A stretch of 64,000 nt of DNA from Vibrio sp. SCSIO 43135 (lineage in GTDB: Bacteria; Pseudomonadota; Gammaproteobacteria; Enterobacterales; Vibrionaceae), in the NCBI RefSeq assembly GCF_023716665.1, contig NZ_CP071859.1, positions 1,612,001 to 1,676,000 on the forward strand. Direction: 5' to 3'. The notes beneath the pieces are model-generated. The model did not search any database, was not told the origin of the DNA, and was given only the letters and a program-made list of their open reading frames with translations. A program made the position numbers and the translations under genes. Of the stretch, positions 39,259 through 64,000 are shown piece by piece; the first letter of the stretch is position 1, and the number at the start of each line of letters is the position of its first letter.

Positions 39259-39435
39259 TATTAGCTCCACTTTTATTTTCATAACGCAGAACAAATCACA
39301 CCACACCAAAACATTTGAAATAAAATCACTTTCTTACTTGATGTGCGATTTCTTTTAATTAATCATTAACATTAATTAAGGCGTACTTATAAAACTTGTT
39401 GACTTCATTTGCGCCTCAACTTCACAGGGATGTAT

Positions 39436-41990: not shown

Positions 41991-41992
41991 CT

Positions 41993-42292: not shown

Positions 42293-42441
42293 TAAATATT
42301 TTCATTTACCTTTCACATTTAGCGTGACATCAGTCCAGTTTTTTAGATGAAGTTCAAAGTTTTTGGTAAATAATTATTTTCTCGAAGACATTTCATAAAA
42401 AAGTCCTAGAATTAACAAATGTTAATAAACCTTTAAACCTA

Positions 42442-42461
42442 TTGATAATCATAATGATGCG
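42442..42461. promoter_or_regulatory. Fur-box-like sequence upstream of tssA
   Basis: TTGATAATCATAATGATGCG reads as hexamers GATAAT-CATAAT-GATGCG, close to the repeat structure of Fur boxes (GATAAT arrays). It lies about 50 bases before the tssA start, where a promoter should be. The region is AT-rich, so chance matches are likely. Confidence 0.35.
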
Positions 42462-42509
42462 TAGATTTTAACCACCACATTATCGATTAAGTTAATCATC
42501 AGGAATCAT

Positions 42510-43916: not shown

Positions 43917-43948
43917 GGAATTAATGCTAGCTAGCAAAGGAGAAAAGA

Positions 43949-44470: not shown

Positions 44471-44490
44471 TGTAATTAAGGAGAAGTACT

Positions 44491-46472: not shown

Positions 46473-46479
46473 TGAGATT

Positions 46480-46503
46480 GGCCGGAGCAATCCGGCCTTT
46501 AAT
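46480..46503 (+). terminator. Attenuator-like hairpin between tssC and its paralogue
   Basis: GGCCGGA (46480-46486), loop GCAA, TCCGGCC (46491-46497), then TTTAATTT. It is a GC-rich stem with a GNRA-like loop and a weak T tract, directly after the tssC stop, and could lower transcription of the genes downstream of hcp-tssBC. Confidence 0.6.
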
Positions 46504-46507
46504 TTGT

Positions 46508-47902: not shown

Positions 47903-48321
47903 TGAGCTTTTGGAATACTTTTTTGTCTCCGAACACGGTTAAAGACAATCACATAGACGACATTAAATATCATCTGACCAAGCTGTTTGAAGCAGAAGCA
48001 TCTTTGGTCGAGATCGACAACCGTTTAGGCGAAGTAAATCGCTCCAACTTTAGGTTTGGGATCGAAGATATTCAGTTATTGAGCGCTAGCCTCGACCAAA
48101 CTCAACTAGCCAGACGCATCGAATCTTGGATTCAAAACTTTGAGCCGCGCTTGAGTAATGTATCGGTCGAGTTAATCGAGCGAAAAGAAGGCGAAAACGC
48201 CCTTTCATTCAATATCATCGCGAAAACAAAAACAGAATATGGGGACCAAGAGCTCGTATTCGATTCGAAGATTGCACTCAATGATTTAAGCACTTCATTG
48301 GATGAGGATAGTTATGACTGA
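47902..48321 (+). CDS. tssE: TssE baseplate (gp25-like) protein
   Basis: 139 aa. It has the gp25 fold motifs VKDNHIDDIKYHLTKLFE near the start and VNRSNFRFGIEDIQLL near 45-60. TssE nucleates sheath growth at the baseplate. The start overlaps the stop of the second TssC gene by one base, and its end overlaps tssF by eight bases. The usual 'EFR'-like sheath-contact motif is not clear in it. Confidence 0.85.
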   Translation: MSFWNTFLSPNTVKDNHIDDIKYHLTKLFEAEASLVEIDNRLGEVNRSNFRFGIEDIQLLSASLDQTQLARRIESWIQNFEPRLSNVSVELIERKEGENALSFNIIAKTKTEYGDQELVFDSKIALNDLSTSLDEDSYD

Positions 48322-50065
48322 TCCCCTATTACGTTATTTTGAACAAGAGCTAGCATTTGTACGCCGCTCACTTGGGCAATTCGGCTCAGACTATCCTACT
48401 CACGCGGAAAGCCTGAACATTCACCAAGGAAAAGTTGAAGACCCAAGCATGGCACGCTTGCTCGATGGTGTGGCTCTGCTCAACGCAAATCTAGAGAAAC
48501 AGCTTTCCGATCAACTACCTGAAGTGGTTGAAGGGCTTTTAGATGTGTTGTACCCATCGTACGTACAAACCGTCCCAAGCGTGGCCTACCTTCACCTCAA
48601 TGACAACGAACCTATTACTGAAGCAGTTTCCTTACCAAAAGGGAGTCAGTTTGTCGGTTTAGCCAAAGGTGAAGAATGTATTTTCACAACGGTTGATAAA
48701 ATAGAAGTATCACCATTTAGCATTGTTGATATTCAGGCTCTAAGCGCTCCTTTTAGCTTCAATAGACCGCAGAATGCGGCACGCACTTCTGCGGTGATTC
48801 AAATCTCTTTGTCGACGGGTGATCCTGAAGTGTTTTTTAGTCAGCTAGACATTGGTGACTTCGACTTTTTTGTTCAGGGTTTTGAAAACAGTGCTGATTC
48901 ATTGGTCGAGCTACTTTTGAGTAATGTTTCAGCGATATCTCTATCCGATTCAACGTGTGAGAGTCATAGAGCTATTGAGAGCAACAACCTTAAAAATCGA
49001 ATCAGTGATTTGGAGTTCAAGTTTTTACCCCAACACGGTAATCAGTTTTCAGGGTATCAATTACTTAACGAATACTTCTTCTTCAAAGAAAAACGGCAGT
49101 TCTTCCGCTTAAAACGATTTGGAGACTTTGCTAAACAGTTTTCCGAGTCTGAAATTATCGTCAATTTGTTTATGGATTCATTGCCATCTGAGTTCATTCG
49201 ACTGTTCGATAAAGGAGTATTCAAACTTAATGTAGTGCCCGCTGTTAACTTGTTTGAACAGACTGGCGAACCCATTAACTATGACAATCGTAAACTGAGC
49301 GCTCCAATCAATGCTGACGCCCACAGTGATTCGACCATCAATGTCGTTGAAGTTAAAGAAGTCTATGAAATTACATCACAAGGTGAAAAAAAACTAACAC
49401 CCTTGTTCAGAGACAAGTACGGTCAAGGCTCTTCAACTGATTATTGGCAATGCAAACGTGACCATGGCGATACACTGCAACTCTCCGTTAGCTTGTCTGA
49501 TCCCAATAACATCGATTTTAACAAGTTATATGGAACTCGGTTACTGTGTACCAATGGTAAACAAGCCTGTGCAGCCGAAGGTGAATTTGAATGTATTGAA
49601 AGCATAGACTTACCTGCGGCTTTTTCGGCTATCTATCCGCCCTCTGCTCCTATTGAGCGTGAAAGAGATCAACACATGCACTGGCAGTTTGTCGGGCTAT
49701 TAAACTGTAACTTTTCGTCCCTATTACAATCTCCAGAACCAGAAAATGAACTAAAGCAAATGTTGGCACTGTGCAGCCGAAGCCAAGTATCGTCATCGGA
49801 AATTCAGATGATTCGTTCTGTCAACTTTCGTTCTCAAGTCTCTGCGATTCGAATTATGGGTAAAAACGTATTTTCCCCAGGTACCGAGATAGAAATTACG
49901 CTTGATGCGAAAGGCGCTTACCACGTGTTTAGTGACGTATTGAATCGTTTCTTCCAACAATTTTGTAGCTTTGACCGCTATGTTCGCTTAAGTGTTCGAG
50001 TATACGGGCGCGATGGCATCGCCAAGCAGTACCCGAAGGTTCACGGGAGTCAGCTATGTCTTTAA
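48314..50065 (+). CDS. tssF: TssF baseplate protein
   Basis: 583 aa from the ATG at 48314, which follows GAGGA; an ATG 12 bases upstream lacks it. The start DPLLRYFEQELAFVRRSLGQFGSDYPTHAESL is typical of VasA/ImpG (key YFEQELAFVR). PEVVEGLLDVLYPSYVQTVPSVAYLHL near 80-106 (key LLDVLYPSYVQ) and NRFFQQFCSFDRYVRLSVR near the end confirm it. It forms the baseplate wedge with TssG, TssE and TssK. Its stop codon is the first codon of the 18-bp repeat array. Confidence 0.93.
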   Translation: MTDPLLRYFEQELAFVRRSLGQFGSDYPTHAESLNIHQGKVEDPSMARLLDGVALLNANLEKQLSDQLPEVVEGLLDVLYPSYVQTVPSVAYLHLNDNEPITEAVSLPKGSQFVGLAKGEECIFTTVDKIEVSPFSIVDIQALSAPFSFNRPQNAARTSAVIQISLSTGDPEVFFSQLDIGDFDFFVQGFENSADSLVELLLSNVSAISLSDSTCESHRAIESNNLKNRISDLEFKFLPQHGNQFSGYQLLNEYFFFKEKRQFFRLKRFGDFAKQFSESEIIVNLFMDSLPSEFIRLFDKGVFKLNVVPAVNLFEQTGEPINYDNRKLSAPINADAHSDSTINVVEVKEVYEITSQGEKKLTPLFRDKYGQGSSTDYWQCKRDHGDTLQLSVSLSDPNNIDFNKLYGTRLLCTNGKQACAAEGEFECIESIDLPAAFSAIYPPSAPIERERDQHMHWQFVGLLNCNFSSLLQSPEPENELKQMLALCSRSQVSSSEIQMIRSVNFRSQVSAIRIMGKNVFSPGTEIEITLDAKGAYHVFSDVLNRFFQQFCSFDRYVRLSVRVYGRDGIAKQYPKVHGSQLCL

Positions 50066-50157
50066 ATCTTGAAGTGTTTATAAACCTAGATGAGCTTGTA
50101 AATCTAGATAAGTTTGTACACCAATGCCCTAGCGTCCAATTAGAGGAGAGTCATTAA
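50056..50157 (+). CDS. 33-codon ORF between tssF and tssG built on 18-bp repeats
   Basis: ATG at 50056 inside the end of tssF, stop TAA at 50155-50157 overlapping the tssG ATG by one base. The peptide contains three tandem six-residue units, NLEVFI, NLDELV and NLDKFV, then HQCPSVQLEESH. No family is recognised and no ribosome site is needed if ribosomes re-initiate from tssF. It could be a real small protein, a translational coupler carrying tssF ribosomes to tssG, or an expansion accident. GAGGAG at its end is the ribosome site of tssG. Confidence 0.45.
   Translation: MSLNLEVFINLDELVNLDKFVHQCPSVQLEESH
50065..50118 (+). repeat. Three imperfect 18-bp tandem repeats
   Basis: AATCTTGAAGTGTTTATA, AACCTAGATGAGCTTGTA and AATCTAGATAAGTTTGTA run end to end (50065-50082, 50083-50100, 50101-50118). 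The first starts with the last base of the tssF stop codon. Units two and three differ at five positions. Confidence 0.8.
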
Positions 50158-51086
50158 TGAGCTTCATTCATGATATGTCTTCTCAGCCAGAGAAATACGA
50201 TTTCGTTCAGGCGATGCGTTTGTTGAACTCGCTAGTGAAAGCGAACCCTCGTCATGTAAAAGTTGAGCTTAAAGCAGAGGTAATGCCTACCGGTGCACCC
50301 AATGAGATTCAGTACTTTTCGTTTAAAAACAGTAAAGCCAAGATCCGCCTAGCGAAACAAGCTCTTTCTGGCGTCAAAGGAGTGATTCCAAACTACATTT
50401 ATGAAGAGTTACTCATCGCCCTTCACAAAGAAGATCATGCGCTGAAAGATTTCCTAGATGTGTTTAATCAACGTCATTTCGAGTTGGTGAATAAAGCCGA
50501 CAGCCAACGTTGGTTACTGCTAGAAAATGAACTTTCCCCAGAAAAAACTCGCTTATTGAACCAGCTATCGGCGTTAAAAAGTAGCCATGGTCGATACTTT
50601 CAATACTCCATGTTGCTTGGCCACAAAACACGCCATATCGGCACATTAAAACAGATGCTGAACGACTATTTTCCTTACCGGATTGATGTTGAGTGTAATC
50701 CAAGTGAAAAACGTCAGTTACCGACCGATTCGCTAACTCGCCTTGGGAACAACGAAAAGTACAACTGCCGTATTGGGCAAGGTTTTTTGCTTGGCAAACA
50801 CTGTGAGGCTCAATTCAATCATATTTCGATTTACATCGTACCAAGCAGCCGTACTCAGTTCACGCAAGCCCAGCAAGATGAACAACTCGGTCGGGAGGTA
50901 CTCCAGCTTGCCGAACATTTTATTCGAGATAACACCCCTATCTCGATTTATCTAAGTGTGAAACGAACTTACCTAAACCAACCTGTACTGTCATCAGACT
51001 CGAAACAGGCAGCAAGGCTTGGTGAAGTAGATTGTCTTTCTCCAGAAAGAAAACCAAATGAAATCGTTAGAATCCTGATCAACTAA
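50157..51086 (+). CDS. tssG: TssG baseplate protein
   Basis: 309 aa. The start SQPEKYDFVQAMRLLNSL is the expected N-terminus of TssG/ImpH. GRYFQYSMLLGHKTRHIGTLKQMLNDYF (key FQYSML), TRLGNNEKYNCRIGQGFLLG and QFNHISIYIVP follow the family. A GAGGAG lies eight bases before the ATG. It is slightly shorter than many TssG proteins (about 330 residues), mainly in the middle. It works with TssF2-TssE-TssK in the baseplate wedge. Confidence 0.93.
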   Translation: MSFIHDMSSQPEKYDFVQAMRLLNSLVKANPRHVKVELKAEVMPTGAPNEIQYFSFKNSKAKIRLAKQALSGVKGVIPNYIYEELLIALHKEDHALKDFLDVFNQRHFELVNKADSQRWLLLENELSPEKTRLLNQLSALKSSHGRYFQYSMLLGHKTRHIGTLKQMLNDYFPYRIDVECNPSEKRQLPTDSLTRLGNNEKYNCRIGQGFLLGKHCEAQFNHISIYIVPSSRTQFTQAQQDEQLGREVLQLAEHFIRDNTPISIYLSVKRTYLNQPVLSSDSKQAARLGEVDCLSPERKPNEIVRILIN

Positions 51087-51171: not shown

Positions 51172-53787
51172 ATGACTCAAGTAACCCTCACCAACCTCGT
51201 TGGTAAGCTCGCTCCCGAGCTAAAACAAGCCTTAGAAGTCTCTGCCGGTGCAGCCATGAACCAAGGTGTGCCTGCGATTGAAGTTGAGCATTGGCTGCTA
51301 CAGCTCATCTCTCAAAGTGATGCAAAGCTGCAAGCTCTGTTCGACTCGCAGAAGATAACGCAAGACACGGTCGTAAACGAGCTAACGACCAAGATATCGC
51401 GTCTACCAAAAGGAAGTGAAGGTCAACCAACACTCAGCCACTCTCTCACAGAGCTAGTTAAAGATGCTTGGATGATCGCTTCGGTAAACTATGGGCACGG
51501 CGAAATTGTCAGCTTGCACCTTGTTCAAGCTCTTATTCAACAAAACGTCATGGGCGTTAATACGTTACAGCTTGATAGCTTAAAGCCGGTATCTTTGGAA
51601 TCACTGCAAGGTTTAATCTCGAAGACGCCAATCGCTCGCGCCAAATCTTCTTCCTCTCAAGCTGGCGGATCTGTTGATACCACACCATCGGGTAATGATG
51701 CTCTAAGCAAGTACACGATCAATCTTACTCAGCAGGCATTAGACGGAAAGATAGACCCTATTTCCGGTCGTAATGCAGAAGTACGCAAGGCTATCGATAT
51801 CTTGTGCCGTAAGCGTCAAAACAACCCTATCATGGTCGGTGAACCGGGCGTTGGTAAAACCGCAGTGGTTGAAGGTTTAGCACTTCGAATCGCTGCTAAT
51901 GAAGTCCCAGGTGCGTTGCAAGGCGTGCAAATTCACTCTTTGGATTTAGGCTTACTGCAAGCCGGTGCCAGTGTTAAAGGCGAATTCGAGAATCGCCTTA
52001 AAGACGTCATCAATGAAGTGAAAAACTCTGAAGAACCTATCATTGTATTCATTGATGAGGCACACACTCTCATCGGTGCGGGCGGCGCAGCTGGTCAAAA
52101 TGACGCGGCTAACCTACTTAAACCTGCACTAGCGCGTGGTGAGTTCAAAACCATTGCAGCGACTACGTGGGCTGAGTACAAAAAATACTTCGAAAAAGAT
52201 CCTGCACTAACACGCCGCTTCCAAGTCGTCACAATTGAAGAACCAAACGCAGAAGATGCGATGCAGATGTTGCGTGGTATTGCTGCTTCTCTTCAAAATC
52301 ATCATGGCGCTTTCATTGCCGAATCTGCTATCGAAGCAGCCGTTAACCTCTCTATTCGCTATCTGCCAAGCCGACAGCTACCTGATAAAGCCATCAGCCT
52401 TCTCGATACAGCCAGTGCGCGTATCGCCCTGACTCAAGGTGCGAAACCAGAAGTAATAGAGACGTTAGAGCAAAAGATCCGCTATCAAGAGAATGAAAAA
52501 GTGGCGTTAGAAAAAGAAGAGGCACTTTTCTCTAATAGCGCAGAAGAGATTGAAGAGCTCACAGAGGAAATTAAAGCAAATAAACTCCGACTCGAGCAGT
52601 ACCAGACTCAATGGGAACAAGAAGTTGAGTTGGTCGATCAAATTAAGGTCGTCCAAGAAGAAATCACTCAGCAACAAGAGCAAGATGCGGTTGAAGAAGC
52701 GAAACAAACACAGCTTACTGATCTAAGAAATAAGCTTTCTGCTCTGCAAGGCGAGGACCCACTGGTACATGCAATGGTAGACGACAATACCATTGCTCAA
52801 ATCATCGCTAACTGGACAGGCATTCCAGTTGGAAACATGATGAGCGACGAAATCGCGAAGCTACTCACCCTTGAGGAAGAGTTGGATAAACGAGTCATTG
52901 GACAGAATGTTGCCAAGCAAGAGCTCGCGAAAGCAATTCGAATCTCGCGCGCGGGTTTGACCGACAGCCGTAAGCCTATCGGTGTCTTCTTAATGTGTGG
53001 TCCAAGTGGTGTTGGTAAAACTGAGACAGCAATGGCGCTTGCTGAGCAGCTTTACGGAGGAAGCAATGACCTTACTATCATCAACATGACTGAGTTCAAA
53101 GAGGAACATAAGATCTCGATGTTATTGGGCTCTCCTGCTGGTTATGTTGGTTTTGGTGAAGGTGGTGTGCTTACTGAAGCCATTAGACGCAATCCATACT
53201 CAGTACTTCTACTAGATGAGATGGAAAAAGCGCACCCTGGTGTGCATGACTTGTTCTACCAAATCTTTGATAAAGGGCATATCAAAGACAGTGAAGGCAG
53301 AACTGTCGATTTCAAAAATACCATCATCATCATGACGTCAAACGCCGCCGACCAAGCTATCTGTGATGCCTGTGCCGACTCGGATGAGCGTATGGAGAAC
53401 GAAGAACTTCTCGAAGCTATTCGTCCAGACTTACAGCATTACTTCAAGCCCGCTTTCTTAGGCCGTACAACTATAGTTCCTTACTACCCACTTAATGATG
53501 AAGAGCTGTCTAAAATCACAGAGATTTCTCTCAACAGAATTAAGAAAAAACTTGCCGAACAATATCAAGCAACCTTTACGTGGGATGAGGGCTTCGTTCA
53601 ATTTGTCGTGGGCAGAAACACCGACCCAACCACTGGCGGCCGTGCTGTAGAGCAAATCATTAATCGCTCACTGATGCCAAAACTTGCCGAAGAGTGTATT
53701 GGTCGATTAAGCCGACAAGAGCCAATCACACAAGTACGCGTAACAGCAGAAGATTCTGCACTTGGCTTTGCTTTAGAAATTGAATAG
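51172..53787 (+). CDS. tssH: TssH (ClpV) sheath-recycling AAA+ ATPase
   Basis: 871 aa. An N-terminal Clp-repeat domain (about residues 1-155) binds contracted sheath. The first AAA+ module has GEPGVGKTAVV near 223-233 and VFIDEAHTLIGAG; a coiled-coil middle domain follows (about 420-530), and the second module has GPSGVGKTETAMA near 611-623 with LLLDEMEKAHPGV. Hexamers pull TssC apart after firing so the parts can be reused. It is 85 bases after tssG with an AAGGA ribosome site. Confidence 0.96.
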   Translation: MTQVTLTNLVGKLAPELKQALEVSAGAAMNQGVPAIEVEHWLLQLISQSDAKLQALFDSQKITQDTVVNELTTKISRLPKGSEGQPTLSHSLTELVKDAWMIASVNYGHGEIVSLHLVQALIQQNVMGVNTLQLDSLKPVSLESLQGLISKTPIARAKSSSSQAGGSVDTTPSGNDALSKYTINLTQQALDGKIDPISGRNAEVRKAIDILCRKRQNNPIMVGEPGVGKTAVVEGLALRIAANEVPGALQGVQIHSLDLGLLQAGASVKGEFENRLKDVINEVKNSEEPIIVFIDEAHTLIGAGGAAGQNDAANLLKPALARGEFKTIAATTWAEYKKYFEKDPALTRRFQVVTIEEPNAEDAMQMLRGIAASLQNHHGAFIAESAIEAAVNLSIRYLPSRQLPDKAISLLDTASARIALTQGAKPEVIETLEQKIRYQENEKVALEKEEALFSNSAEEIEELTEEIKANKLRLEQYQTQWEQEVELVDQIKVVQEEITQQQEQDAVEEAKQTQLTDLRNKLSALQGEDPLVHAMVDDNTIAQIIANWTGIPVGNMMSDEIAKLLTLEEELDKRVIGQNVAKQELAKAIRISRAGLTDSRKPIGVFLMCGPSGVGKTETAMALAEQLYGGSNDLTIINMTEFKEEHKISMLLGSPAGYVGFGEGGVLTEAIRRNPYSVLLLDEMEKAHPGVHDLFYQIFDKGHIKDSEGRTVDFKNTIIIMTSNAADQAICDACADSDERMENEELLEAIRPDLQHYFKPAFLGRTTIVPYYPLNDEELSKITEISLNRIKKKLAEQYQATFTWDEGFVQFVVGRNTDPTTGGRAVEQIINRSLMPKLAEECIGRLSRQEPITQVRVTAEDSALGFALEIE

Positions 53788-53798
53788 GTAATAAGAAA

Positions 53799-56351
53799 AT
53801 GAGCAAGATGGACCTTGTTAACAACGACAAACGCAAATTTAGCTTCAGCTTAAGAGCAAAGCTATCGTTTGCCATTTTGTCTGTCTTGCTCTTTTCAATA
53901 AGTCTAAATACGGTACTCAATTACCTTAACTTTGAGAAGCGTATCGTTCAAACATCAGATTCAATCTACGACATTGTATTGGAGGAAACTGAAAACGATA
54001 TCAATCAAGCTATTAGCCTTGGTTTACCTTTATCTGCGATCAGTAACATTCAAGCGTTGCTTGATAGGCGTATAAGTCTGGCACCTGGCATAACGTCAAT
54101 TTCCGTTGAAGCCGCAAATGGCGCTGTACTATTTCAAGCTACGACACAAGAAAGCGAGTCCGACCGGGAACTCACCTCTACGATTACCAACACTTTTGGG
54201 GTTGTTGAAGGAAGACTAAAACTCCACTACTCAATTGATCAATTAGAAAAACAGACCGCTTTCATATTGAACATGCAGCTGTTTTACGCGTTGTTTTCGG
54301 TATTGGTAGCGTCTATTTGCGGATTTATTTTTCTTAAAGTGTTACTAGCGGGTATATCGAATCGCGTTAAAAAAGCCGACTCGATTCTAGCAAGCAGTGA
54401 AAACGTCACAGTAGAAACGCTGCAAGATGCTCACCGAGCATTATCGTTCAGTCAAAGTAAAAGCAAATGGAATCAAAAAAGAGAGAAACACTTCCCTTTG
54501 TTTGTGATTGTCCTGGCGATAGTACTGACTATCTCAGCCAATGTGACATCGTCGTACTTATCTCTTAACAAATTTTCGCAGCTTTACGAACTTAAACTTG
54601 AACAGAAATCGAATTTAATTGGAGACGCGCTGACAACAATGGTCGATAGACTTTTGTCTCAGGGAGTACCCATTGATCGCCTTCAAGGCCTAGAAGAAGA
54701 ATTCGCATTCTACACCGAGGGACATGAAGAAATCACCGCAATTGCCTTGAGCAACGAGGATGCACATCTGTATCACTACCCAGAAACGACTGGTGATCTT
54801 TCCAATGCTAGTCATATCGAAGTTGGTAGCCGTAGTCAGATCCACTTAAATATATCGACCGACGAAAACATACTGTTGAAGATGCTGAAAGAAAGCCTGA
54901 TGGATATGCTCACGGTGTTGGTTGCATCATGTTTGGTGGTAAGTGAAATCATTCTCTTCATGTGTAACTTCATGATCATTTCGCCGTGGCATCAAGTCAA
55001 AAAAGTCTTTATGACTATCAACAGAGACATTGTTAGCCATGTGGCTAAAGTGACCTCACGGGACGAAATTGGTCAATTACTAGAGCGGGCTAACTCGGCA
55101 ATAGTAAAGCTTAACCCAGAACAAGAAACAAAGTTAATCGAGTCACAAGATTATCGATTCATTCGATTGCCGCTCTTCATGCTAGTTTTCGCCGAGGCGG
55201 CTTCTCTGGCGTTTTTTCCAAACTATGTGTCCTCACTTGAAAACTCTTATGGATGGATTCCTGAAAACTTAGTGACGAGCTTACCTATTTCTCTGTTTAT
55301 GTTGTGCTGGGCACTCTCCCTGCCCTTTGCCGGATACTGGTCAGATAAAGTCGGCCGACGACACTCATTAATGGTCGGAGGCATCATCACCGGCTTGGGA
55401 TTGTTTGGTACGGCAATCACTCAATCTCTAGAGATCCTACTCGTCACACGTGCCATTACCGCCGTTGGCTACGGTATCGTATTTATTTCTGCTCAAGGCT
55501 ATGTTTCAGATACCACCAATGACAATAGTCGTACCAAAGGCATGGCAACCTTCTTATCTTCATTCTTTTCTGGTTCATTGTGTGGTGCTGCAATTGGTGG
55601 GATTTTAGCGGATAAACTAGGTTACTCCGCAACGTTTATATTTGCTGGCCTGCTGGCATTTGCAAGTGTTGCACTAGTATCTGTTTTCTTTGAGCGGACC
55701 AATGTAAATAACAACAGCCAACCCGTGAAGCTGTCCGATTTCAGTATACTGCTAAGCAACAAATACTTCGCGTTGATCACTATATGCAGTGCAATCCCCG
55801 CCAAAATCGTACTGACAGGTTTCCTCTATTACATATGCCCGGTTTACTTGCAGTTCTTAGGGGAAAGCAGTGCAGCCTCCGGTCGGGTCATGATGGCTTA
55901 TGGTCTGGCAATCATTATTATCTCTCCTATCAGTGCCATTCTGGTTGATAAGTTTAATAACAAGATCGCGTTCATCTTTATCGGCGGCCTGATCTCAGCC
56001 CTTGCGTTGCTTAATATCTATTTTGTCCAAGGAACGTTGGGAATACTGATGATCGTAATCTTTATTGGTATTGCACATGGTGTATGTGTCTCACCACAAA
56101 TACCCTTGGTCATTGAGCTTTTATCTAGTCAGGGAATCAACCGTGGCAAAGTCATCGGTATATTCCGCCTGACGGAGCGCATTGGCAATATTGCAGGACC
56201 GATGCTCGCAGGTTTAGCTTTGAGCGTTTTCGGATACAACTTCACAATCATGCTATTCGGTGGTGCACTGTTAGCAAGCTCCCTCGCTCTGCTGCTGTTT
56301 TTCTTTACCTTTACTCGTTTAGACCAAAAAAGTTTAGAGGTGTCATCATGA
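53799..56351 (+). CDS. Double-sensor domain fused to a major facilitator transporter, inside the T6SS operon
   Basis: 850 aa. The N-terminal half looks like two receptor sensor modules in series: membrane segments near residues 21-40 and 161-182 flank one periplasmic domain, and segments near 231-253 and 368-394 flank another. A HAMP-like stretch (SRDEIGQLLERANSAI near 428-443) follows. Residues about 452-845 are a 12-helix MFS transporter with the signature AGYWSDKVGRRHSLMVGG and later VDKFNNKIAF. No kinase, cyclase or methyl-accepting output is present; the transporter takes that place. It is 11 bases after tssH and overlaps the next gene by four bases. Its substrate and role in secretion are unknown. 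Confidence 0.85.
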   Translation: MSKMDLVNNDKRKFSFSLRAKLSFAILSVLLFSISLNTVLNYLNFEKRIVQTSDSIYDIVLEETENDINQAISLGLPLSAISNIQALLDRRISLAPGITSISVEAANGAVLFQATTQESESDRELTSTITNTFGVVEGRLKLHYSIDQLEKQTAFILNMQLFYALFSVLVASICGFIFLKVLLAGISNRVKKADSILASSENVTVETLQDAHRALSFSQSKSKWNQKREKHFPLFVIVLAIVLTISANVTSSYLSLNKFSQLYELKLEQKSNLIGDALTTMVDRLLSQGVPIDRLQGLEEEFAFYTEGHEEITAIALSNEDAHLYHYPETTGDLSNASHIEVGSRSQIHLNISTDENILLKMLKESLMDMLTVLVASCLVVSEIILFMCNFMIISPWHQVKKVFMTINRDIVSHVAKVTSRDEIGQLLERANSAIVKLNPEQETKLIESQDYRFIRLPLFMLVFAEAASLAFFPNYVSSLENSYGWIPENLVTSLPISLFMLCWALSLPFAGYWSDKVGRRHSLMVGGIITGLGLFGTAITQSLEILLVTRAITAVGYGIVFISAQGYVSDTTNDNSRTKGMATFLSSFFSGSLCGAAIGGILADKLGYSATFIFAGLLAFASVALVSVFFERTNVNNNSQPVKLSDFSILLSNKYFALITICSAIPAKIVLTGFLYYICPVYLQFLGESSAASGRVMMAYGLAIIIISPISAILVDKFNNKIAFIFIGGLISALALLNIYFVQGTLGILMIVIFIGIAHGVCVSPQIPLVIELLSSQGINRGKVIGIFRLTERIGNIAGPMLAGLALSVFGYNFTIMLFGGALLASSLALLLFFFTFTRLDQKSLEVSS

Positions 56352-57337
56352 AAAAGTGGCTAACTTTTATTGTTATCACCTTTGCGTGTAATTTCATGGT
56401 TCAAGCCAGTGAAGAAAAGCACGTGGTCATGTTGTTATGGCGCGGTATTACAGAAGCAGAAAAAGGCTATATGAGCTATTTGTCTGAACGAAACTCTGTA
56501 AAGTTTACTGTTCTGGATGCAAATAGAGATAAAGCGACGTTGGCTGCACATATCTCTTCGCTTGAAGAGCATCAGGCGGATGTCATATATACGTTTGGAA
56601 CAACGATTACTCGTACTCTACTTGGAACGGTAGACAATCCTTCTCCCTTTAGCCTAACCAGTTCTACGCCTGTCGTATTCAGTATTGTTACCGATCCTGT
56701 AGGGTCACGAATCACAGACAGTTTAAATAGCGACCATCGTAATTTTACTGGGGTGAGTCATATTGTTCCGCACAATGTTCAATTAAAAGCAATCAGCCAA
56801 TTACCTAACGTAGATATTCTAGGCATCATTTACAATCCCCTCGAAAATAATGCGGTAATAACTGCAAACAATATTGCTGCGCTCGGCAGGAAGTTCAATA
56901 TTCAAGTAAATTTGTACCCACTTGATATTGTCGATGAAAAGCCATCTGCTGGGTCGGTTGATATTATCAGTAGCAAAATGGCAGAGGATGGCGTTGATGT
57001 TGCTTATCTGCCACCGGACTCCTATATCATTGCTCAAGGTGGGGTTATCGTAGATTCTATCCATAATCAGGGAATACCAACCTTTTCTGCAACCGAGTCA
57101 CCAATACGAAATTATGATGCACTGTTCGGTATAGTCAGCCGATATTACAATGTAGGACAATTTGCTGCATATAAAACTGAACAAATTTTGAATGAATCGA
57201 TGAATATTAGTGATATTCCGATTGAAGCATTAAGCCAGTATTCGTATATTGTAAATATTAACGCAGCCAAACAGTTAGATTATTATCCACCCGTTTCTAT
57301 TTTGAAGATTTCCGAAATTATAGGGAAGCAACAATGA
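56348..57337 (+). CDS. ABC-type periplasmic binding protein (PF04392-like) in the T6SS operon
   Basis: 329 aa with a signal peptide (cleavage near QAS, residue 21). The fold is that of ABC substrate-binding proteins of the PF04392/TrpX type: VIYTFGTTITRTLLG, TPVVFSIVTDPVGSRITDSL (key VTDPVGS), DILGIIYNPLENNAVI and VDVAYLPPDSYIIAQGGVIVDSI (key LPPDSYI). Such proteins bind aromatic amino acids or similar small molecules. No cognate permease or ATPase is encoded nearby. The start overlaps the MFS fusion, and its end overlaps the next gene by four bases, so it may deliver ligand to the sensor domains. Confidence 0.82.
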   Translation: MKKWLTFIVITFACNFMVQASEEKHVVMLLWRGITEAEKGYMSYLSERNSVKFTVLDANRDKATLAAHISSLEEHQADVIYTFGTTITRTLLGTVDNPSPFSLTSSTPVVFSIVTDPVGSRITDSLNSDHRNFTGVSHIVPHNVQLKAISQLPNVDILGIIYNPLENNAVITANNIAALGRKFNIQVNLYPLDIVDEKPSAGSVDIISSKMAEDGVDVAYLPPDSYIIAQGGVIVDSIHNQGIPTFSATESPIRNYDALFGIVSRYYNVGQFAAYKTEQILNESMNISDIPIEALSQYSYIVNINAAKQLDYYPPVSILKISEIIGKQQ

Positions 57338-58077
57338 TGTTAGGACAGACCATAAATAAAAGACATCATGCTGTATTATTGCCTTTCCTCATACTATGGT
57401 CTGCTCACTCTTTCGCACAAAGCTCTGGCCTCTCAAGTCACGTAGGTCCAGCTCGGCTACAGCTCACCACACAAAATTGGGCGCCTTACCAAGAGTATAC
57501 CGGCGGCCAAATGCACGGTATCGCGTTAGACAAAGTAAAATGTGCGTTAGGAAAAATGGGGCAACCATACCAAATCACGATGACCAGTTGGTCTGATGCT
57601 CAGCTTCGTGTCCATAGTGGCTCTCAGCACGGTTTTTTTGTGGCAACACAAACTACCGAGCGTGACGAATACGCAACGCTTTCCGATCCAATCGCTCAAC
57701 AAAAACTCAGTTGGTATTTTGGCCCTGGCGTTGAGCCGAAGATTGATGAGTTGTCAAAGGTAAACCTTAAGTTTTCTGCCAAATTTGGGTCCAATAAATG
57801 GTTTTGGCTAAAACGTAATGGTTTTAACGTAGTCAAACAGCCTCGTGATGCTAAAGTATTACTAAGGCTTTTAAAACAAAGGGAAATTGATATTGCCTTA
57901 GAAGATGAGCTTGTGTTCAAAACTGAACTTCAGCAAGCCCTGCTTCCAGCAGATTTCTTTCGTTCTGAATTGCTCGATACAAAAGAGATGGGCGTTTACT
58001 TTTCTAAACGTTTTCTCAACCAATACTCAGGCTTCCTAGAAAGCTTTAATGCCGCTGTAGCACAGTGCAAAGGATAA
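57334..58077 (+). CDS. SBP_bac_3-like periplasmic binding protein in the T6SS operon
   Basis: 247 aa with a signal peptide (cleavage after SFA, residue about 28). The family-3 solute-binding pattern is seen in LTTQNWAPYQEYTGGQMHGIALDKVKCALGKMG (key WAPYQ and MHGIALD) and in DIALEDELVFK. LTTQNWAPY resembles proteins that bind amino acids or quorum-like signals such as the BctC or histidine-type binders. One Cys pair (C65 area and the C-terminal AQCKG) may form a disulfide. It lacks ABC partners. It completes the sensory trio before fha, with 22 bases between. Confidence 0.82.
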   Translation: MMLGQTINKRHHAVLLPFLILWSAHSFAQSSGLSSHVGPARLQLTTQNWAPYQEYTGGQMHGIALDKVKCALGKMGQPYQITMTSWSDAQLRVHSGSQHGFFVATQTTERDEYATLSDPIAQQKLSWYFGPGVEPKIDELSKVNLKFSAKFGSNKWFWLKRNGFNVVKQPRDAKVLLRLLKQREIDIALEDELVFKTELQQALLPADFFRSELLDTKEMGVYFSKRFLNQYSGFLESFNAAVAQCKG

Positions 58078-58099: not shown

Positions 58100-59050
58100 G
58101 TGGCAATCAGTGTTCATTTGATTTCTGTACCCGCTGAAGAGGTTGTTACCTCTCGTGTCGTATATCTACCGGAAAACGGTGGAGAATTTGGGCGCTCGCC
58201 ATCCTGTGATATCGCCCTGCCCGATCAATCAAAACGCATTTCACGTGTACATGGTAAAATCGTTTTAAAAAACAACGCCTACTTTGTCAAAGATACCAGC
58301 AACAATGGCGTCCTGCTCAATGACAAACCGCTTGCTAAGGAAAGAGAATATCCGCTCAACGATGGTGACGTGCTCAAAATCGAAAGCTACACCATGTTAG
58401 TCAGTACATTAACCAGTACAACCAACGTTACTGAAACCAGCACAGCAACCGATGATGACCCATTCTCTGAAGGTTTCTCGCTAGATCTTAATGATGAGAT
58501 GGATTTCTTAGAAGACAGTAAACCGATAGAAGTCGATAAAGAACCCGCTCAGTTTTCTAAACAGAACGTGCTTAGCGACGACCCTTTCTCTGCAGATCCG
58601 TTTGAAGACCTAGATCAAGATAAAGTCGTACCTAATATCGAGATAGACGAAGTTGAAAGTATTGATACGAATGGTAATTCCAGCAAAGAGCTAGAGTATT
58701 TACCTGTACATACTGAGCAGAACAATAGTCACATTGAAGCTTCCATCGATAAGCTTATCCACCTAACTGAAAAGAATCAGCGTTTCTTGCAGAACCCTCA
58801 GCTACAGCATGAAGCACTATTCAATGCGCTTGAGCAAACTGTGGAACAGTTTCTAAACGAGTTCGCTCCAACAAATCTAGAGAGTCAGTTTAGTGAATAT
58901 GTCTCGTCAGGCATGTTTACCAGTAAAGATAAGAAATATTGGCGCATCTACCGTAAGCACTTTCAGCATCGACGCGATAACGGAGATTTCCGTCGTCAGT
59001 TTAAAGCGTTGTTTATGGAAAACATGCAGAAGCAAGGAGAAGAGCAATAA
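58100..59050 (+). CDS. tagH: Fha (TagH) FHA-domain protein of the T6SS
   Basis: 316 aa from a GTG at 58100 (GAGGGA upstream); no ATG in frame is available. The FHA domain is at about residues 20-95 with GGEFGRSPSCDIALPDQSKRISRVHGKI (key GRSP, SRVHG and NNGVLLN). A long acidic linker (about 110-215) and a helical C-terminal domain with FSEYVSSGMFTSKDKKYWRIYRKHF (key KKYWRIYRKHF) follow, as in TIGR03354. FHA proteins recognise phosphothreonine made by PpkA-type kinases and trigger assembly; the kinase is not in the window. Confidence 0.9.
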   Translation: MAISVHLISVPAEEVVTSRVVYLPENGGEFGRSPSCDIALPDQSKRISRVHGKIVLKNNAYFVKDTSNNGVLLNDKPLAKEREYPLNDGDVLKIESYTMLVSTLTSTTNVTETSTATDDDPFSEGFSLDLNDEMDFLEDSKPIEVDKEPAQFSKQNVLSDDPFSADPFEDLDQDKVVPNIEIDEVESIDTNGNSSKELEYLPVHTEQNNSHIEASIDKLIHLTEKNQRFLQNPQLQHEALFNALEQTVEQFLNEFAPTNLESQFSEYVSSGMFTSKDKKYWRIYRKHFQHRRDNGDFRRQFKALFMENMQKQGEEQ

Positions 59051-59532
59051 TGGCTAAATGGTTTGTTGCTGTCGCGTTGTTTCTTGCAGGGTGTTCTTCA
59101 GACCCTGTGCCAGTAGTGACCAAGCATACCTTTAGTATCAAAGCCGATGCGACATTGAATACGTATCAGGGTAACCAAGCAAACCCCGTTATCGTTCGAT
59201 TGTACCAACTGACAGACAAGCAAATGTTTTCTCAGTTAGCCTTTATCGATCTATATAACCAAGACATACAGTTGCTTGCCGCGAACTTAGTATCAAAACA
59301 AATTTTGCCAGCGGTGTTACCCAACTCTAATCAAACCATCGAAATTGATGTGAATAAGAATACCCAATACCTAGCTGTATTGGTCGAGTTTGCGGACTAT
59401 CAAAACAGTGAAGCAAAGTCTGTAACCATGTTACCAACCGACGAAGATCAGTATGTAGAACTCTACTTGTCGGGAATTAAAGCTCAGCTCAACATCATCA
59501 CGCCCGACTCTAGTTGGTGGCAGGTATTTTAA
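59050..59532 (+). CDS. tssJ: TssJ outer-membrane lipoprotein
   Basis: 160 aa. The lipobox LFLAGCSS places the lipidated Cys at residue 15. The transthyretin-like core shows in NPVIVRLYQLTDKQMFSQLAFIDLY (key VRLYQLTDK), and in ILPNSNQTIEID and YLAVLVEFADYQ. TssJ anchors the TssLM membrane complex to the outer membrane. The ATG overlaps the fha stop by one base. Asp follows Cys-Ser-Ser at +3, so the retention rule for +2 is not met and outer-membrane sorting is expected. Confidence 0.93.
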   Translation: MAKWFVAVALFLAGCSSDPVPVVTKHTFSIKADATLNTYQGNQANPVIVRLYQLTDKQMFSQLAFIDLYNQDIQLLAANLVSKQILPAVLPNSNQTIEIDVNKNTQYLAVLVEFADYQNSEAKSVTMLPTDEDQYVELYLSGIKAQLNIITPDSSWWQVF

Positions 59533-59557
59533 TAAGAATAAACTATAGGGATATCAC

Positions 59558-60889
59558 GTGGACGCGTTTAAAAAAGTAGTATGGCAAGAAGGGATGTTCA
59601 TAGCCCCACAGCATTTTCAACAACAAGACCGCTACGTTCAAAACTATATTCGTCAAAATGTAGAAACTCTCGCTGGATTCTCTCCGTTTTATGGCATCAC
59701 AGATTTTACTATCAACCACGACTTGCTAAAAATTGGCAAGTTGGCGCTACCGAGTTGTGCTGGCGTTTTTCCTGATGGTACTCACTTTGAAGTTAACAAT
59801 GAAATCCTATTGGAAATTCCTCAGGGTACAATTGAGACGGTGGTATATATTGCTTTACCGATTTCGCTACAGGGTAACAACGACTACAGCGAAAATGAGC
59901 AAGATCAAAGCCGCTATCTCACTCACCCTATTAATGTCTTTGACACTTCAACGTCTGAGAACGCAAGCGTAGAAATAGATGTTGCGCGACTTAATATAAC
60001 GTTGAAGCTTGAGTCAGACGACACTTCAGGCTTTACCCTTATTCCTGTATGTAAAATCCTAGAAAGTAATGAGTCTGGCGAGGTTGTATTAGACAGAGCA
60101 TTTATTCCTGCTTGTTTACACTATGGCGCCTCAGCATTTCTAACCGAGCGAGTAAAGGAAATACACGCCCTGGTCAGTAACCGCGCGCAAAACCTTCTGA
60201 AACGGATTCAAGCAGGCCAGGGGCAGAAGAGTGCTCAGTCCTTAATGCAAGACTATCTATGGCTGCAGACACTGAATACATGGATGCCTTGGTTCGATCT
60301 CACGATTGCAAATTCAAAGCTTCAAACTCATCAGTTGTACAGCAAACTCAAACAGTTTGAAGCGCAAGTAATGGCGTTAACTCCTGCTATTCCAGATACT
60401 TGTGAGCCACTTAAATACCATCGTTTATACGATAGTTTTAACCCACTCTTTTCTAGCTTGCGAAATATGCTCACACTCGTCCAGCAAGACTCAGTGATAG
60501 AGTTCAATTGGGATAGTTCGCTGTTTGAAAAACGCCGCCTATTAAGAACAATCATCAAAGATGCAGCGAGCGTTGCAAATAGGCGTTTCGTTCTCAGCGT
60601 TAAATCTTCCATCAGCACATCCGATTTAAATGAGCTGTTCCCTATTTCTGCGAAACTGAGTAGTAATACTCGCATCGTTGAGCTAGTGCGTAACTCTTTG
60701 TCTGGTATCGCTTTATCTCCTCTTCCTCTCGCCCCAAGCGAACTCAAACCAATGCAAGGAGTGGCCTACTTTGAAGTCGATACCTCTGATAAAACATGGA
60801 AAGATATGCTTGAACAGCGTGATGCTATAGCACTGCACGTAGATGCGCGTATTCCAGAGCTCGAAGTCATGCTTTATGCGTTGAGGTAG
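59558..60889 (+). CDS. tssK: TssK baseplate-membrane connector
   Basis: 443 aa, GTG start with AGGG upstream; the next in-frame ATG would cut the conserved start. It begins VVWQEGMFIAPQHFQQQDRYVQNYIR, the family hallmark (key WQEGMFIAPQHFQQQ). Middle motifs are LIPVCKIL and LPIFIPACLHY-like FIPACLHYGA, and it ends with HVDARIPELEVMLYALR. TssK trimers link the baseplate to TssL and TssM. It is 25 bases after tssJ and six bases before tssL. Confidence 0.95.
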   Translation: MDAFKKVVWQEGMFIAPQHFQQQDRYVQNYIRQNVETLAGFSPFYGITDFTINHDLLKIGKLALPSCAGVFPDGTHFEVNNEILLEIPQGTIETVVYIALPISLQGNNDYSENEQDQSRYLTHPINVFDTSTSENASVEIDVARLNITLKLESDDTSGFTLIPVCKILESNESGEVVLDRAFIPACLHYGASAFLTERVKEIHALVSNRAQNLLKRIQAGQGQKSAQSLMQDYLWLQTLNTWMPWFDLTIANSKLQTHQLYSKLKQFEAQVMALTPAIPDTCEPLKYHRLYDSFNPLFSSLRNMLTLVQQDSVIEFNWDSSLFEKRRLLRTIIKDAASVANRRFVLSVKSSISTSDLNELFPISAKLSSNTRIVELVRNSLSGIALSPLPLAPSELKPMQGVAYFEVDTSDKTWKDMLEQRDAIALHVDARIPELEVMLYALR

Positions 60890-60894
60890 CCTAG

Positions 60895-62088
60895 ATGGAC
60901 TATGTAGATGAAGAAACGCTCGTTTGGGATAGAGACACAGGCCAAGTTCAAGATGAAACTGATGGCCTTTCTCAGGTTAAGCAATCTCACGTAAAAGCCT
61001 CCAGCGCTCAAGTGGAGTTTCTGAGACACTTTGATAAAGCAGAAAACCAACTGATCAACATCAGTAGCGAATTGTTGTCTACCACTTTAAAAATCTCAAC
61101 ACTACCTGAGCCCGAAGATTTATCAGTTCTCCGCGAGCAACTGATTCAGAGTATCAACGATATCAAAGCAAAAGGCGCAGAACTTACCTACCCCGTGGCG
61201 GTTATAGATAAGCTTTGCTTCTTGTACGCTGTCGTTATCGACGAGTTCATTATTTATACTGAATGGGGCGAAAAGCGTGGCTGGGAAAACAAAACCTTAT
61301 TGAGCCAATTGTTTGGAATGCGTAACGGTGGTGAGTTGTTTTTCTCAGTAGCGGAAAAAGCGGTAAGGCAACCACATAAGCTTATCGATTTGCTAGAGGT
61401 TATCTACATTTTCCTCAATATTGGATTTAAAGGCCAATATCGTGACTCTGGTAACGACCAATTAAAAGCCTTTGTTCATCAGCTCGAACAGGTTGTCAGC
61501 CAATACCGTCAAGGCAGTGGTATTCATTGTAATATCAAAACTAAAATGCCAAAGACACGTAAACCGACACGTCGTAAACGCTACCTAGTCACGACACTGT
61601 TTTTCGGCTGTCTGATTGCCACCAGCATAGGGTTAACCTATTTTTGGTACGATAAAACACACCCTCAACGCGCTCGTGATTTCAACTACCTTCAAGACTT
61701 CAGTCAACGTTACGTTCTTTCAGGAGAAGTAAACGATATTGTTTTCATTAGCAATGATCAGGATCTCGACGTACTCCCACAACGAGCAAGTAAAGTTGAG
61801 CTCGTTGATACTCCAGCGCCTCAGTCTCTTGCTACTAGCCAATCAAATTGGTTGGTTCAATTGGCAACATTCTCAGCCAAGAGCAATGCAGAAAATTACC
61901 TAAGCAATCTTTCGGCGTCTAAGTACGAACCGGTTATTGATCAATACAAAGCCTACTACCGCGTGATTGTACGAACGAAAACAGCGCAGCAAGCAAGAGA
62001 AATTAAAAATTGGTTTAAGGAAAACAACCAAATTAACGCCATCATCGTTCGCAATGAAAAAGCGCTACCTAGTGAAGAGAGTAAGTAA
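60895..62088 (+). CDS. tssL: TssL (DotU family) with a C-terminal SPOR domain
   Basis: 397 aa. The cytoplasmic DotU domain is residues about 45-205 with VIDKLCFLYAVVIDEFIIYTEWGEKRGWENKTLLSQLF (key DEFIIYT and GWENKTLLSQLFG). A single membrane segment lies near 226-247. The periplasmic tail ends in about 75 residues (317-392) typical of SPOR: NWLVQLATFSAKSNAENYL, YKAYYRVIVRTKTAQQAREI. SPOR domains bind glycan strands stripped of stem peptides, at division sites. TssL proteins often have no periplasmic domain or an OmpA-like one; a SPOR fusion is less usual. GAGG precedes the ATG. Confidence 0.92.
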   Translation: MDYVDEETLVWDRDTGQVQDETDGLSQVKQSHVKASSAQVEFLRHFDKAENQLINISSELLSTTLKISTLPEPEDLSVLREQLIQSINDIKAKGAELTYPVAVIDKLCFLYAVVIDEFIIYTEWGEKRGWENKTLLSQLFGMRNGGELFFSVAEKAVRQPHKLIDLLEVIYIFLNIGFKGQYRDSGNDQLKAFVHQLEQVVSQYRQGSGIHCNIKTKMPKTRKPTRRKRYLVTTLFFGCLIATSIGLTYFWYDKTHPQRARDFNYLQDFSQRYVLSGEVNDIVFISNDQDLDVLPQRASKVELVDTPAPQSLATSQSNWLVQLATFSAKSNAENYLSNLSASKYEPVIDQYKAYYRVIVRTKTAQQAREIKNWFKENNQINAIIVRNEKALPSEESK

Positions 62089-62091
62089 ACT

Positions 62092-64000
62092 ATGTCGTCA
62101 AATAGTCAGTCTTCAAGTAAAGATAGCAAGCAGCAAAAGAAAAGCGGCAAACTAAAAGCAGTCTTAGTATCTCTACTCATTTTCGTATTGGTATATGCAC
62201 TCACTTCGGGTGGGCTTTGGTTTACTTCTTTCCAAGATCAGCTTGCAGCATTGTTAATCATTGGCTTTGTCACCGCCCTGATCGGTGCTTTTGTTACCTA
62301 TTGGTTAATGACTAAATCAAAGCGAAAATCGGAAACTAATTCTCAAGAGCGAATCCTAATCGCAAAGCGTAAAAAGCTTTTAAGTCAGCATTTCGCACGC
62401 ATGCTTAAACTTCAAAAGCGCAAGAAGCGCCTTAACAGCCGCTACGACCAACCTATTTACCTTATGTTGAGCTCCGATCCCCAGCAGGACAAAACGGTCA
62501 TTACTCAGATGGGTTACGAAGCCTACAAGCTCGACGACTTTGGCAATGACATTGAGTTTCCTATCCTCTTTTGGCTAAGTGAACACTCGATCCTAATCTC
62601 AGTAAGTACTGGCGAAGATCAACATCCAGAATACCTTAAGACCCTTTGCCAATGTTTAATGAAGTGGCGTCCAAGACAGGCTGTCAACGGTGTATTACTC
62701 ACTACTGAAGTGTCTCTATTACTCGATTCTAACGAAAGTATTTCGCAATATGCTGACGAAATGAAGTCGGTCATCACTACATTCAATCAGACCTTTGGGC
62801 TTTCACTACCTGTCTATAACGTGGTAACAAACTTGGGAAGCATCAGTGACTTCTGTCAGTTCTTCTCCGGTTTTGATGAGTCAAAACGTGACGATGTGTT
62901 CGGCGCAACTATCCCTTACCAGAAACATGGCGGGATCGATGCTAACTGGTTTAATGAACAATATGACCATTTGATTGGCCAGCTAATTGCAAATATGAGC
63001 AATGCTCTTTCCGGGCAACTAAACCAAGAATATCGAAACTCGATTGCTAGCGCGCCTTTTCAATTCGGACTTCTCAAACAAAATCTATGGCAATTGTTGC
63101 AGCGCCTGTATCGTGGAGAACAGCTGAGTGACGGTTTAATGTTTCGCGGGTTTTATTTCACCCACAACGGCCAAGACCATGAACAAAATGATCTGCTGGC
63201 AAGTACCATCAATTACTCTCTAGGCAATGAGTCATTCCAACAGCACGAGCAGATTCCAGTACACCAAACCTTGTTTGCGCAGCACTTGATGTCCCATGTT
63301 GTCCTTAATGAACACGAATTGGTTGGCGTCAATAAACGCAAAGAAAATTCCCTACTTTTTGCTCAAGTAGGCTACACCTTTGCGTGGGTCGGCCTTTTTG
63401 CTGCGACGCTCGCTGTACTTAAGCTCGACTTTGATTATCAGAGTCAACGTGAAGCACGAGCAGACGCAATGCTGGAGCGTTATAAAGAGGCCATCTCAGC
63501 TTCTCCTTATGACATTGAAAATATGGCTGGGAATATTCCTAATCTTTATTCCTTACATACAATCTACTCGCTATACCTTGAACCAGACCCTTGGTACACA
63601 CTGCCCTTTATGCCAAGTTCGAGTATTAAAACTGACGTAGAAGAAGCATATTTTACTGAACTCGAGCAAGTACTTGTTCCATCCATGGAGAACACGCTAG
63701 AGAAAGACCTGTTTGTTTACGTGAATTTGGAAGATCAGGCAAAAACCCTGTCTTTGCTAAACAACTATCGTCTGCTGTTCAACGAAAAGCGAACCAATAT
63801 CGAAGAGCTAAAAAACTACTTCGTAAACTCTTTGAAAGATCAAGGTGAAGCAGACAGTGCGAATGTTGCTCAATTGACTATCCTGCTTGATGAAGTTTTC
63901 GCTAGAAACCTTGTACCGATCAAAGCAAATACTGACTTAGAAAGTTTAGCGAAAAAGGTCATCAATCAAACGGGCGTCGAGACGCTGCTTTACGACCACA
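62092..64000 (+). CDS. tssM: TssM (IcmF family), cut by the window edge
   Basis: The ATG at 62092, four bases after the tssL stop, opens a frame with no stop to the window end (636 codons seen; whole proteins are about 1100-1200). Membrane segments are near residues 22-42, 50-72 and 426-444. Between the second and third lies the cytoplasmic domain, where YLMLSSDPQQDKTVIT near 123-138 occupies the Walker A place but lacks its glycines. FFSGFDESKRDDVFGATIPYQ near 262-282 (key GFDESKRDDVFG) fits the IcmF pattern, and WFNEQYDHLIGQL follows. TssM spans the periplasm to reach TssJ; that part mostly lies outside the window. It is missed by a simple stop-to-stop search because its end is absent. Confidence 0.9.
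   Translation, partial: MSSNSQSSSKDSKQQKKSGKLKAVLVSLLIFVLVYALTSGGLWFTSFQDQLAALLIIGFVTALIGAFVTYWLMTKSKRKSETNSQERILIAKRKKLLSQHFARMLKLQKRKKRLNSRYDQPIYLMLSSDPQQDKTVITQMGYEAYKLDDFGNDIEFPILFWLSEHSILISVSTGEDQHPEYLKTLCQCLMKWRPRQAVNGVLLTTEVSLLLDSNESISQYADEMKSVITTFNQTFGLSLPVYNVVTNLGSISDFCQFFSGFDESKRDDVFGATIPYQKHGGIDANWFNEQYDHLIGQLIANMSNALSGQLNQEYRNSIASAPFQFGLLKQNLWQLLQRLYRGEQLSDGLMFRGFYFTHNGQDHEQNDLLASTINYSLGNESFQQHEQIPVHQTLFAQHLMSHVVLNEHELVGVNKRKENSLLFAQVGYTFAWVGLFAATLAVLKLDFDYQSQREARADAMLERYKEAISASPYDIENMAGNIPNLYSLHTIYSLYLEPDPWYTLPFMPSSSIKTDVEEAYFTELEQVLVPSMENTLEKDLFVYVNLEDQAKTLSLLNNYRLLFNEKRTNIEELKNYFVNSLKDQGEADSANVAQLTILLDEVFARNLVPIKANTDLESLAKKVINQTGVETLLYDH

Follow-up and report, generated by a model that had tools for sequence, protein, structure and literature searches.

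What are a sensor-bearing transporter and two periplasmic binding proteins doing in the middle of a type VI secretion system (T6SS) operon? The question is raised by three co-directional genes on the + strand of Vibrio sp. SCSIO 43135 (NZ_CP071859.1, positions 1,612,001 to 1,676,000; this stretch of 64,000 nucleotides is called the window). Calls of open reading frames (ORFs) place them between tssH and fha with overlaps of 4 bases each, bearing out the description in an earlier sequence-only reading. The first gene starts 11 bases past tssH and the last ends 22 bases before fha. We tentatively read the trio, at a probability of roughly 0.45, as a small-molecule input to this T6SS and a variant of a described accessory set, the Vts proteins. 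The trio and its borders, in window positions, are:

51172..53787, + strand: tssH (ClpV), the upstream border of the trio (TIGR03345, 1159 bits)

53799..56351, + strand: sensor-MFS (major facilitator superfamily) fusion, in the VtsB position; 850 amino acids, with module 1 at ~18-216, module 2 at ~232-440 and the MFS half at ~448-846

56348..57337, + strand: PF04392 ABC_sub_bind / TrpX-like periplasmic binding protein, in the VtsC position; 329 amino acids (PF04392, 2.5e-28)

57334..58077, + strand: SBP_bac_3-like periplasmic solute-binding protein (SBP), VtsD-like; 247 amino acids, adjoining fha on its upstream side

58100..59050, + strand: fha (TagH/Fha-like); FHA 1.8e-16, T6SS_FHA_C 5.7e-9, TIGR03354 114.9 bits against a cut-off of 120.25

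The SBP gene is the constant part of this trio, and the sensor-MFS and PF04392 genes are a removable pair; this division is newly established here. In 148 Vibrio genomes, an SBP gene lies directly upstream of fha, with 5-103 bp between the matched segments, at all 42 fha matches (E<=1e-30), a count valid for this fha clade only because the query came from an SBP-bearing cluster. Eight clusters of a third type (described below), in which fha falls short of 1e-30, have the SBP-fha order too. The fusion gene is present in 37 of the 42 clusters and absent from five (L080, L082-L085), in which the SBP gene directly follows tssH and the 19.5-kb stretch shows no recognisable PF04392 gene. Four of these five genomes lack any fusion match at E<=1e-20, and the remaining one (G003) has a match in another T6SS cluster. 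Because the SBP is kept in these five clusters without fusion or PF04392 gene, it needs another partner there.

SBP matches (E<=1e-25) were found in 41 of 394 genomes in an order-wide survey, and 30 of 60 match rows were examined with their surroundings. All 19 examined matches of at least 248 bits, which span four families, adjoin fha, 18 of them also accompanied by the fusion and PF04392 genes, and none of the 11 examined matches of at most 206 bits has a T6SS gene within 1.5 kb. Thus, a T6SS-bound subfamily of the SBP exists. Across 22 window-type loci (L052 left out), mean identity to the window protein was 73.7% for the SBP, 58.0% for the fusion, 60.2% for the PF04392 protein, 59.7% for Fha, 58.3% for TssJ, 61.6% for TssM, 65.6% for TssL, 77.3% for TssK and 84.5% for TssH. 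Within window-type loci, distances are also correlated among five proteins, the SBP, Fha, TssH, the fusion and the PF04392 protein (r 0.87-0.95, n=23; second-type loci, L088, L111 and L112 left out), as expected for a unit inherited together. Linkage, persistence and conservation suggest that the SBP belongs to the T6SS itself and that the fusion pair is an addition to it.

Relatives of the fusion (E<=1e-20) occur in 43 of the 148 Vibrio genomes, at 44 loci: 29 of the window type (48-100% identity), six at 33-37% and nine at 24-28%. Co-occurrence with T6SS clusters across many Vibrio was what the sequence-only reading had asked for as support, and 43 of the 44 loci lie in such clusters. The order tssH-fusion-PF04392-SBP-fha-tssJ-tssK-tssL is kept in 22 of the 23 close loci with flanking DNA; in the other one, the contig end falls inside the fusion gene. 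A kinase-like gene follows tssM in all 22 full window-type relatives. Chance assembly of unrelated genes is ruled out by the kept order and by the complete SBP-fha linkage, and an artefact of the window genome is ruled out for the fusion, since 29 of the 44 loci align from residue 16 or earlier. The one locus outside T6SS clusters, L099:6941-10680, holds the only such Vibrio pair of a sensor-MFS (905 amino acids) and a PF04392-type gene, beside an SDF symporter and an SDR gene. In one of these 29 (Vibrio genome G011, C2 about 1390047-1393187) the match to the fusion gene is broken into two parts, and the SBP and fha genes match there without stops. The trio-bearing cluster of one genome (G059) lies in many fragments (L111, L112).

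Two further cluster types were found. The second type (six loci, one fragmented) has a separate gene of 238-283 amino acids matching the first module, a ~700-amino-acid sensor-MFS gene and a PF04392 gene, all before vgrG, and the SBP gene stays between tssH and fha, ~17 kb from the sensor-MFS group. A split gene, named in the sequence-only reading as a refuting sign, is thus found in six of the 44 loci, with the first module standing alone. The third type (eight loci) has, in order, a gene of 383-385 amino acids, a sensor-MFS gene of 731-747 amino acids, a gene of 377-390 amino acids and the SBP gene. The first of these encodes an ATP-grasp (D-Ala-D-Ala-ligase-like) protein in both loci scanned, L090 and L097, and the gene preceding the SBP gene is PF04392 by Pfam in L090 and a BLAST match to the window protein in six of the eight loci. 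The order in this sister cluster is therefore ATP-grasp, sensor-MFS, PF04392, SBP, fha, tssJ, tssK, tssL; an annotated example is on V. tubiashii plasmid pFP31. Two other third-type clusters lack the fusion, one with ATP-grasp and SBP genes (L097) and one with the SBP gene only (L098). The D-Ala-D-Ala-ligase-like ATP-grasp gene, at L090:6376-7530 for example, suggests that a dipeptide-like molecule may be made in these clusters.

A relative of the SBP in Aliivibrio wodanis (P0052) is annotated as 'putative type VI secretion protein, periplasmic solute-binding protein VtsD'. It is 41% identical to the window SBP (E 1.5e-61) and 60-77% identical to all ten third-type SBPs, and the third type is therefore taken as the vts type. 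Its gene order is presumably that of the V. anguillarum vtsA-H operon, and by gene order only, the fusion and PF04392 genes are probably VtsB and VtsC. Weber and colleagues reportedly found that VtsA, VtsC and VtsD activate hcp expression and that VtsB and VtsE-H repress it; VtsE-H are said to be signature T6SS proteins, and a signal-sensing role is said to have been proposed. In the Vts clusters of V. anguillarum and of the A. wodanis T6SS3 type, fha-tssJ-tssK-tssL is likewise preceded directly by genes for an MFS sensor, a PF04392 protein and an SBP_bac_3-like protein. Unlike these, the window has no ATP-grasp gene (the VtsA position by order) between tssH and the MFS gene, and its fusion has an extra N-terminal module and ~19-24% identity to third-type proteins. 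With no ATP-grasp gene and the fusion gene so close behind tssH, the window set is filed as a VtsBCD-type variant and not as a full VtsA-VtsD set. The extra module may have arisen by merger with a neighbouring sensor gene.

The main text of PMC8861277 places vtsABCD in T6SS3 of A. wodanis and describes their role in V. anguillarum, where the vts effects are on hcp expression and on stress regulators and response, with no virulence role. Table 5 of PMC10385127 (2023) lists an 'MFS transporter', an 'ABC transporter protein', a 'Transporter protein' and FHA in the chromosome 1 T6SS of Vibrio sp. J383. From tssA on, the J383 gene order equals that of the window, two tssC genes included (the duplication is noted in the text of PMC10385127 too); the gene after tssM is an 'AarF/UbiB family protein', in the place of the window-type kinase gene, and two unknown genes lie between vgrG and tssA against one named in the window. 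In that paper's text, the J383 trio is given by annotation only, and no role or Vts link was seen. In the texts consulted, figures and supplements aside, direct bearing on the trio in a window-type cluster comes from these two papers only. The statement of the sequence-only reading that no T6SS component of this kind had been described is thus overturned by the VtsD annotation, by vtsABCD in PMC8861277 and by the J383 gene table. The vtsA1-type names in PMC11790442 denote ordinary T6SS subunits, an unrelated usage.

The two binding-protein families named in the sequence-only reading fared differently: PF04392 stood, and the SBP_bac_3 assignment is weak, the window SBP matching PF00497 at 5e-4 and 20.2 bits, under the curated cut-off of 26.4. 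PF00497 is precomputed for many of its relatives. A single-sequence search of the SBP in PDB returned nothing at E<=1, and its profile gave one weak match to solved structures (E 0.0057), in which R110 is aligned with an arginine of GlnP. R110 is arginine in 33 of 35 aligned SBPs, cysteines C70 and C245 are kept in all 35, and 21 of 22 close rows have at position 191 the aspartate that amino-acid SBPs carry there. The predicted model is a complete two-lobe binding protein of the type II fold, matching amino-acid SBPs as well as the SBP-type sensor domains 3h7m and BvgS VFT2. The PF04392 protein scores 103.9 bits against NF041285, far under the 390-bit cut-off, and has 3lkv, 3lft and 6hni as solved relatives.

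For the fusion, Pfam places MFS_1 at residues 461-775 (4e-49), and the AlphaFold2 model (pLDDT 88.3, pTM 0.84) has two long-helix/four-strand modules followed by a 12-helix MFS. The model thus agrees with the full MFS and the two modules proposed from the sequence; for Cache and HAMP domains, Pfam returns no match in the window fusion. Among 51 aligned relatives (E<=1), HAMP appears in ten (best 2.7e-4) and sCache_3_2 in eight (best 1.7e-6). The second module is itself a relative of the first (hhalign probability 96, E 2e-9). Pfam, alignment and predicted model agree on a 12-helix MFS fold with a conserved polar core, and the polar residues R551, Q566, H760, R790, E793 and R794 are invariant across all 51 relatives, an argument for a functional transporter. 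Fold matches in PDB span residues 447-846 only, with the modules outside their coverage. Among solved structures, the MFS half is nearest to the export-type antiporters VMAT2, NorA and SotB, but the non-antiporters G6PT1, DgoT and MCT1 score almost equally, and the fold therefore leaves the transport direction unfixed. Among viral structures, the top matches of the fusion were mainly MFS-like.

Outside Vibrio, the pair has a wider life. Genome contigs yielded 43 loci: 23 window-type (22 labelled Vibrio, one Motilimonas), 14 distant and six weak MFS matches (L073-L078), which were dropped. In 11 of the 14 distant loci, the next gene after the MFS gene is of the PF04392 family, and three loci (L067, L068 and L071, two of them from one genus) have T6SS genes on the opposite side, oriented away. 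Several distant loci have a stand-alone gene of 248-293 amino acids before the MFS gene, with a weak sCache_3_2 match, below cut-off, in two of three scanned. A 'T6SS-only' invention is ruled out, the fusion and PF04392 pair being found outside T6SS; an old module of sensor-MFS and binding protein may instead have been recruited into T6SS clusters. Homologues without T6SS linkage, named in the sequence-only reading as a refuting sign, thus amount to one of 44 loci within Vibrio and to most of the distant loci over the stretch displayed. Relatives on plasmids (22 records) never cover 80% of the fusion; one Azospirillum plasmid region has the MFS gene without a PF04392 gene annotated beside it, and one Vibrio plasmid record with a relative carries no annotation. 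On an Aureimonas plasmid (L117:4284-11529), the MFS gene, a glutamate-cysteine-ligase (GCL)-family gene, an ABC-substrate-binding (PF04392-type) gene and a SpoIIE phosphatase gene stand together. On the Nitratidesulfovibrio plasmid pDVUL01 (L116:3093-9049), an ABC-substrate-binding gene and a 987-amino-acid MFS gene lie near an annotated type III secretion chaperone gene, and in Iodobacter (L059:13697-16483) the sensor-MFS and PF04392 pair is followed at a short distance by a RamC/LanC-like kinase gene.

If the trio is a small-molecule input, the SBP would first close on an amino-acid-like ligand in the periplasm. Its retention where the fusion is absent suggests that its output partner is probably the T6SS membrane complex, by way of the periplasmic part of TssJ/TssL/TssM; in the cytoplasm, the outcome could be relayed via Fha and the cluster-end kinase. 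The two Cache-like modules, aided by the PF04392 protein, may gate the MFS half, which would move a ligand, thereby setting or reading its level and braking the system. To our knowledge, a sensor-MFS working with a soluble binding protein would be unusual among secondary transporters. We infer that the fusion pair could sit upstream as a ligand-level regulator, consistent with the opposite effects that VtsB on one side and VtsC and VtsD on the other are said to have.

Two known systems offer partial likenesses. The TagQRST/PpkA-Fha threonine phosphorylation pathway shares an envelope input next to Fha and a kinase gene in the cluster. In the window-type cluster, a Pkinase gene and fha are present; no TagQ, TagR, TagS or TagT is named among the cluster proteins scanned and no PppA was seen, though not every ORF was scanned, and binding proteins and an MFS protein take the input place. 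In UhpC with UhpB, an MFS protein likewise serves as a sensor or is attached to one; in the window, by contrast, the MFS half carries fused Cache-like modules, and tssH and fha enclose no gene for a histidine kinase.

Sensing is the best reading of the set, as the sequence-only reading had suggested; its idea of simple docking of both binding proteins on the fusion is weakened by the five of 42 clusters that keep the SBP without a fusion. Several points weigh against a sensing role. The fusion has no enzymatic output domain. PpkA-type kinases span the membrane, whereas the cluster-end kinase gene is short. The arginine match to a solved SBP relies on a weak profile alignment, and position 191 is asparagine in all 13 sister-group rows. 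Co-inheritance is by itself no proof of joint function, and the V. anguillarum vts effects may be indirect. Additionally, 11 of the 14 distant loci yielded no recognisable T6SS gene (BLAST to window proteins over the displayed 5-20 kb, with poor ORF calling in G+C-rich DNA), and no SBP gene was called in any of the 14; the pair's ancestral job was thus not T6SS control.

The alternative that survives best, although we consider it unlikely, is that the trio is a transport module and not a sensor: both binding proteins would feed ligand to the Cache-MFS, as an SBP-assisted secondary transporter for import or export, with the T6SS link reflecting co-expression only. The invariant polar MFS residues favour it, as do the PF04392 gene behind the MFS gene in distant loci (eight of those 11 without a recognised T6SS gene alongside) and the amino-acid-ligase-like genes that adjoin the MFS gene, of the ATP-grasp kind in sister clusters and of the GCL family in Aureimonas. 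However, five clusters keep the SBP without a transporter gene, and two sensor-like modules exceed a plain transporter's needs. Somewhat less likely still, the SBP could serve in the structure or assembly of the T6SS membrane complex, having kept the binding-protein fold and lost ligand sensing, the fusion pair being a separate passenger. This would account for SBP conservation near that of TssK, for its place beside fha even without the fusion, and for the change of D191 to asparagine in the sister group; it is at odds with the retention of R110 and with a model that is a complete two-lobe binding protein, and we know of well-studied T6SSs of other bacteria that function without such a protein. 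Improbable, finally, are self-protection or metabolic passengers, the MFS exporting harmful products met in T6SS activity and the binding proteins scavenging them, since the nearness in fold to export-type antiporters is almost matched by non-antiporters, gene order between sub-types shifts by whole-module steps and the SBP has its own T6SS-bound subfamily.

The trio is part of a T6SS operon that runs from vgrG at 39409 to beyond the window end and is terminated by a protein-kinase-domain gene; several of the T6SS gene assignments in the window are below curated NCBIfam cut-offs. Its other members are:

39409..51086, + strand: vgrG, a DUF6931 gene, tssA, hcp, tssB, tssC, a second tssC-like gene, tssE, tssF and tssG

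59050..64000, + strand: tssJ, tssK, tssL and tssM, the last extending beyond the window end

L079:3469-4269, beyond the window: the short Pkinase-domain gene after tssM

In line with the sequence-only reading, the scanned proteins of the cluster include none named as an ABC permease or ABC ATPase; the search did not extend to the rest of the genome. The second tssC-like gene (46472-47902; TIGR03355 260.1 bits against a cut-off of 271.5) directly follows tssC and has relatives in second- and third-type clusters, and relatives of the DUF6931 gene after vgrG (41418-41990) recur in second-type clusters. Elsewhere in the window, a potD-like gene (272-1247) is broken up by a frameshift or sequencing error: its two ORFs, 272-856 and 825-1247, overlap in different frames, and each matches the PotD model.

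V. coralliilyticus BAA-450 carries the window-type set (L042), with one Hcp match (87%) ~2.7 kb from the nearer VgrG match (73%). In the text of PMC11371242, its T6SS2 comprises VgrG VIC_RS20150 and Hcp VIC_RS20130, and its T6SS1 VIC_RS16325 and VIC_RS16330. The Hcp-VgrG spacing fits the T6SS2 locus tags and not those of T6SS1, which suggests that the trio-bearing cluster is T6SS2. The text of PMC11837519 reports that transcription and secretion of T6SS2 answer quorum sensing oppositely, with another mechanism that is 'likely post-transcriptional', and the trio is a ready candidate for that control. More boldly, and with no great likelihood, VtsD-type SBPs could be core subunits that respond to ligand in a large T6SS clade, docking on the machine and licensing its firing by a small molecule, with the Cache-MFS as a binding-protein-gated transporter tuning that molecule's level; if true, this would also explain the post-transcriptional control of T6SS2. 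What triggers firing is an open question for many T6SSs. An SBP gene that adjoins fha in all related clusters examined speaks for a chemical trigger, which could be hunted by ligand screening on one small soluble protein.

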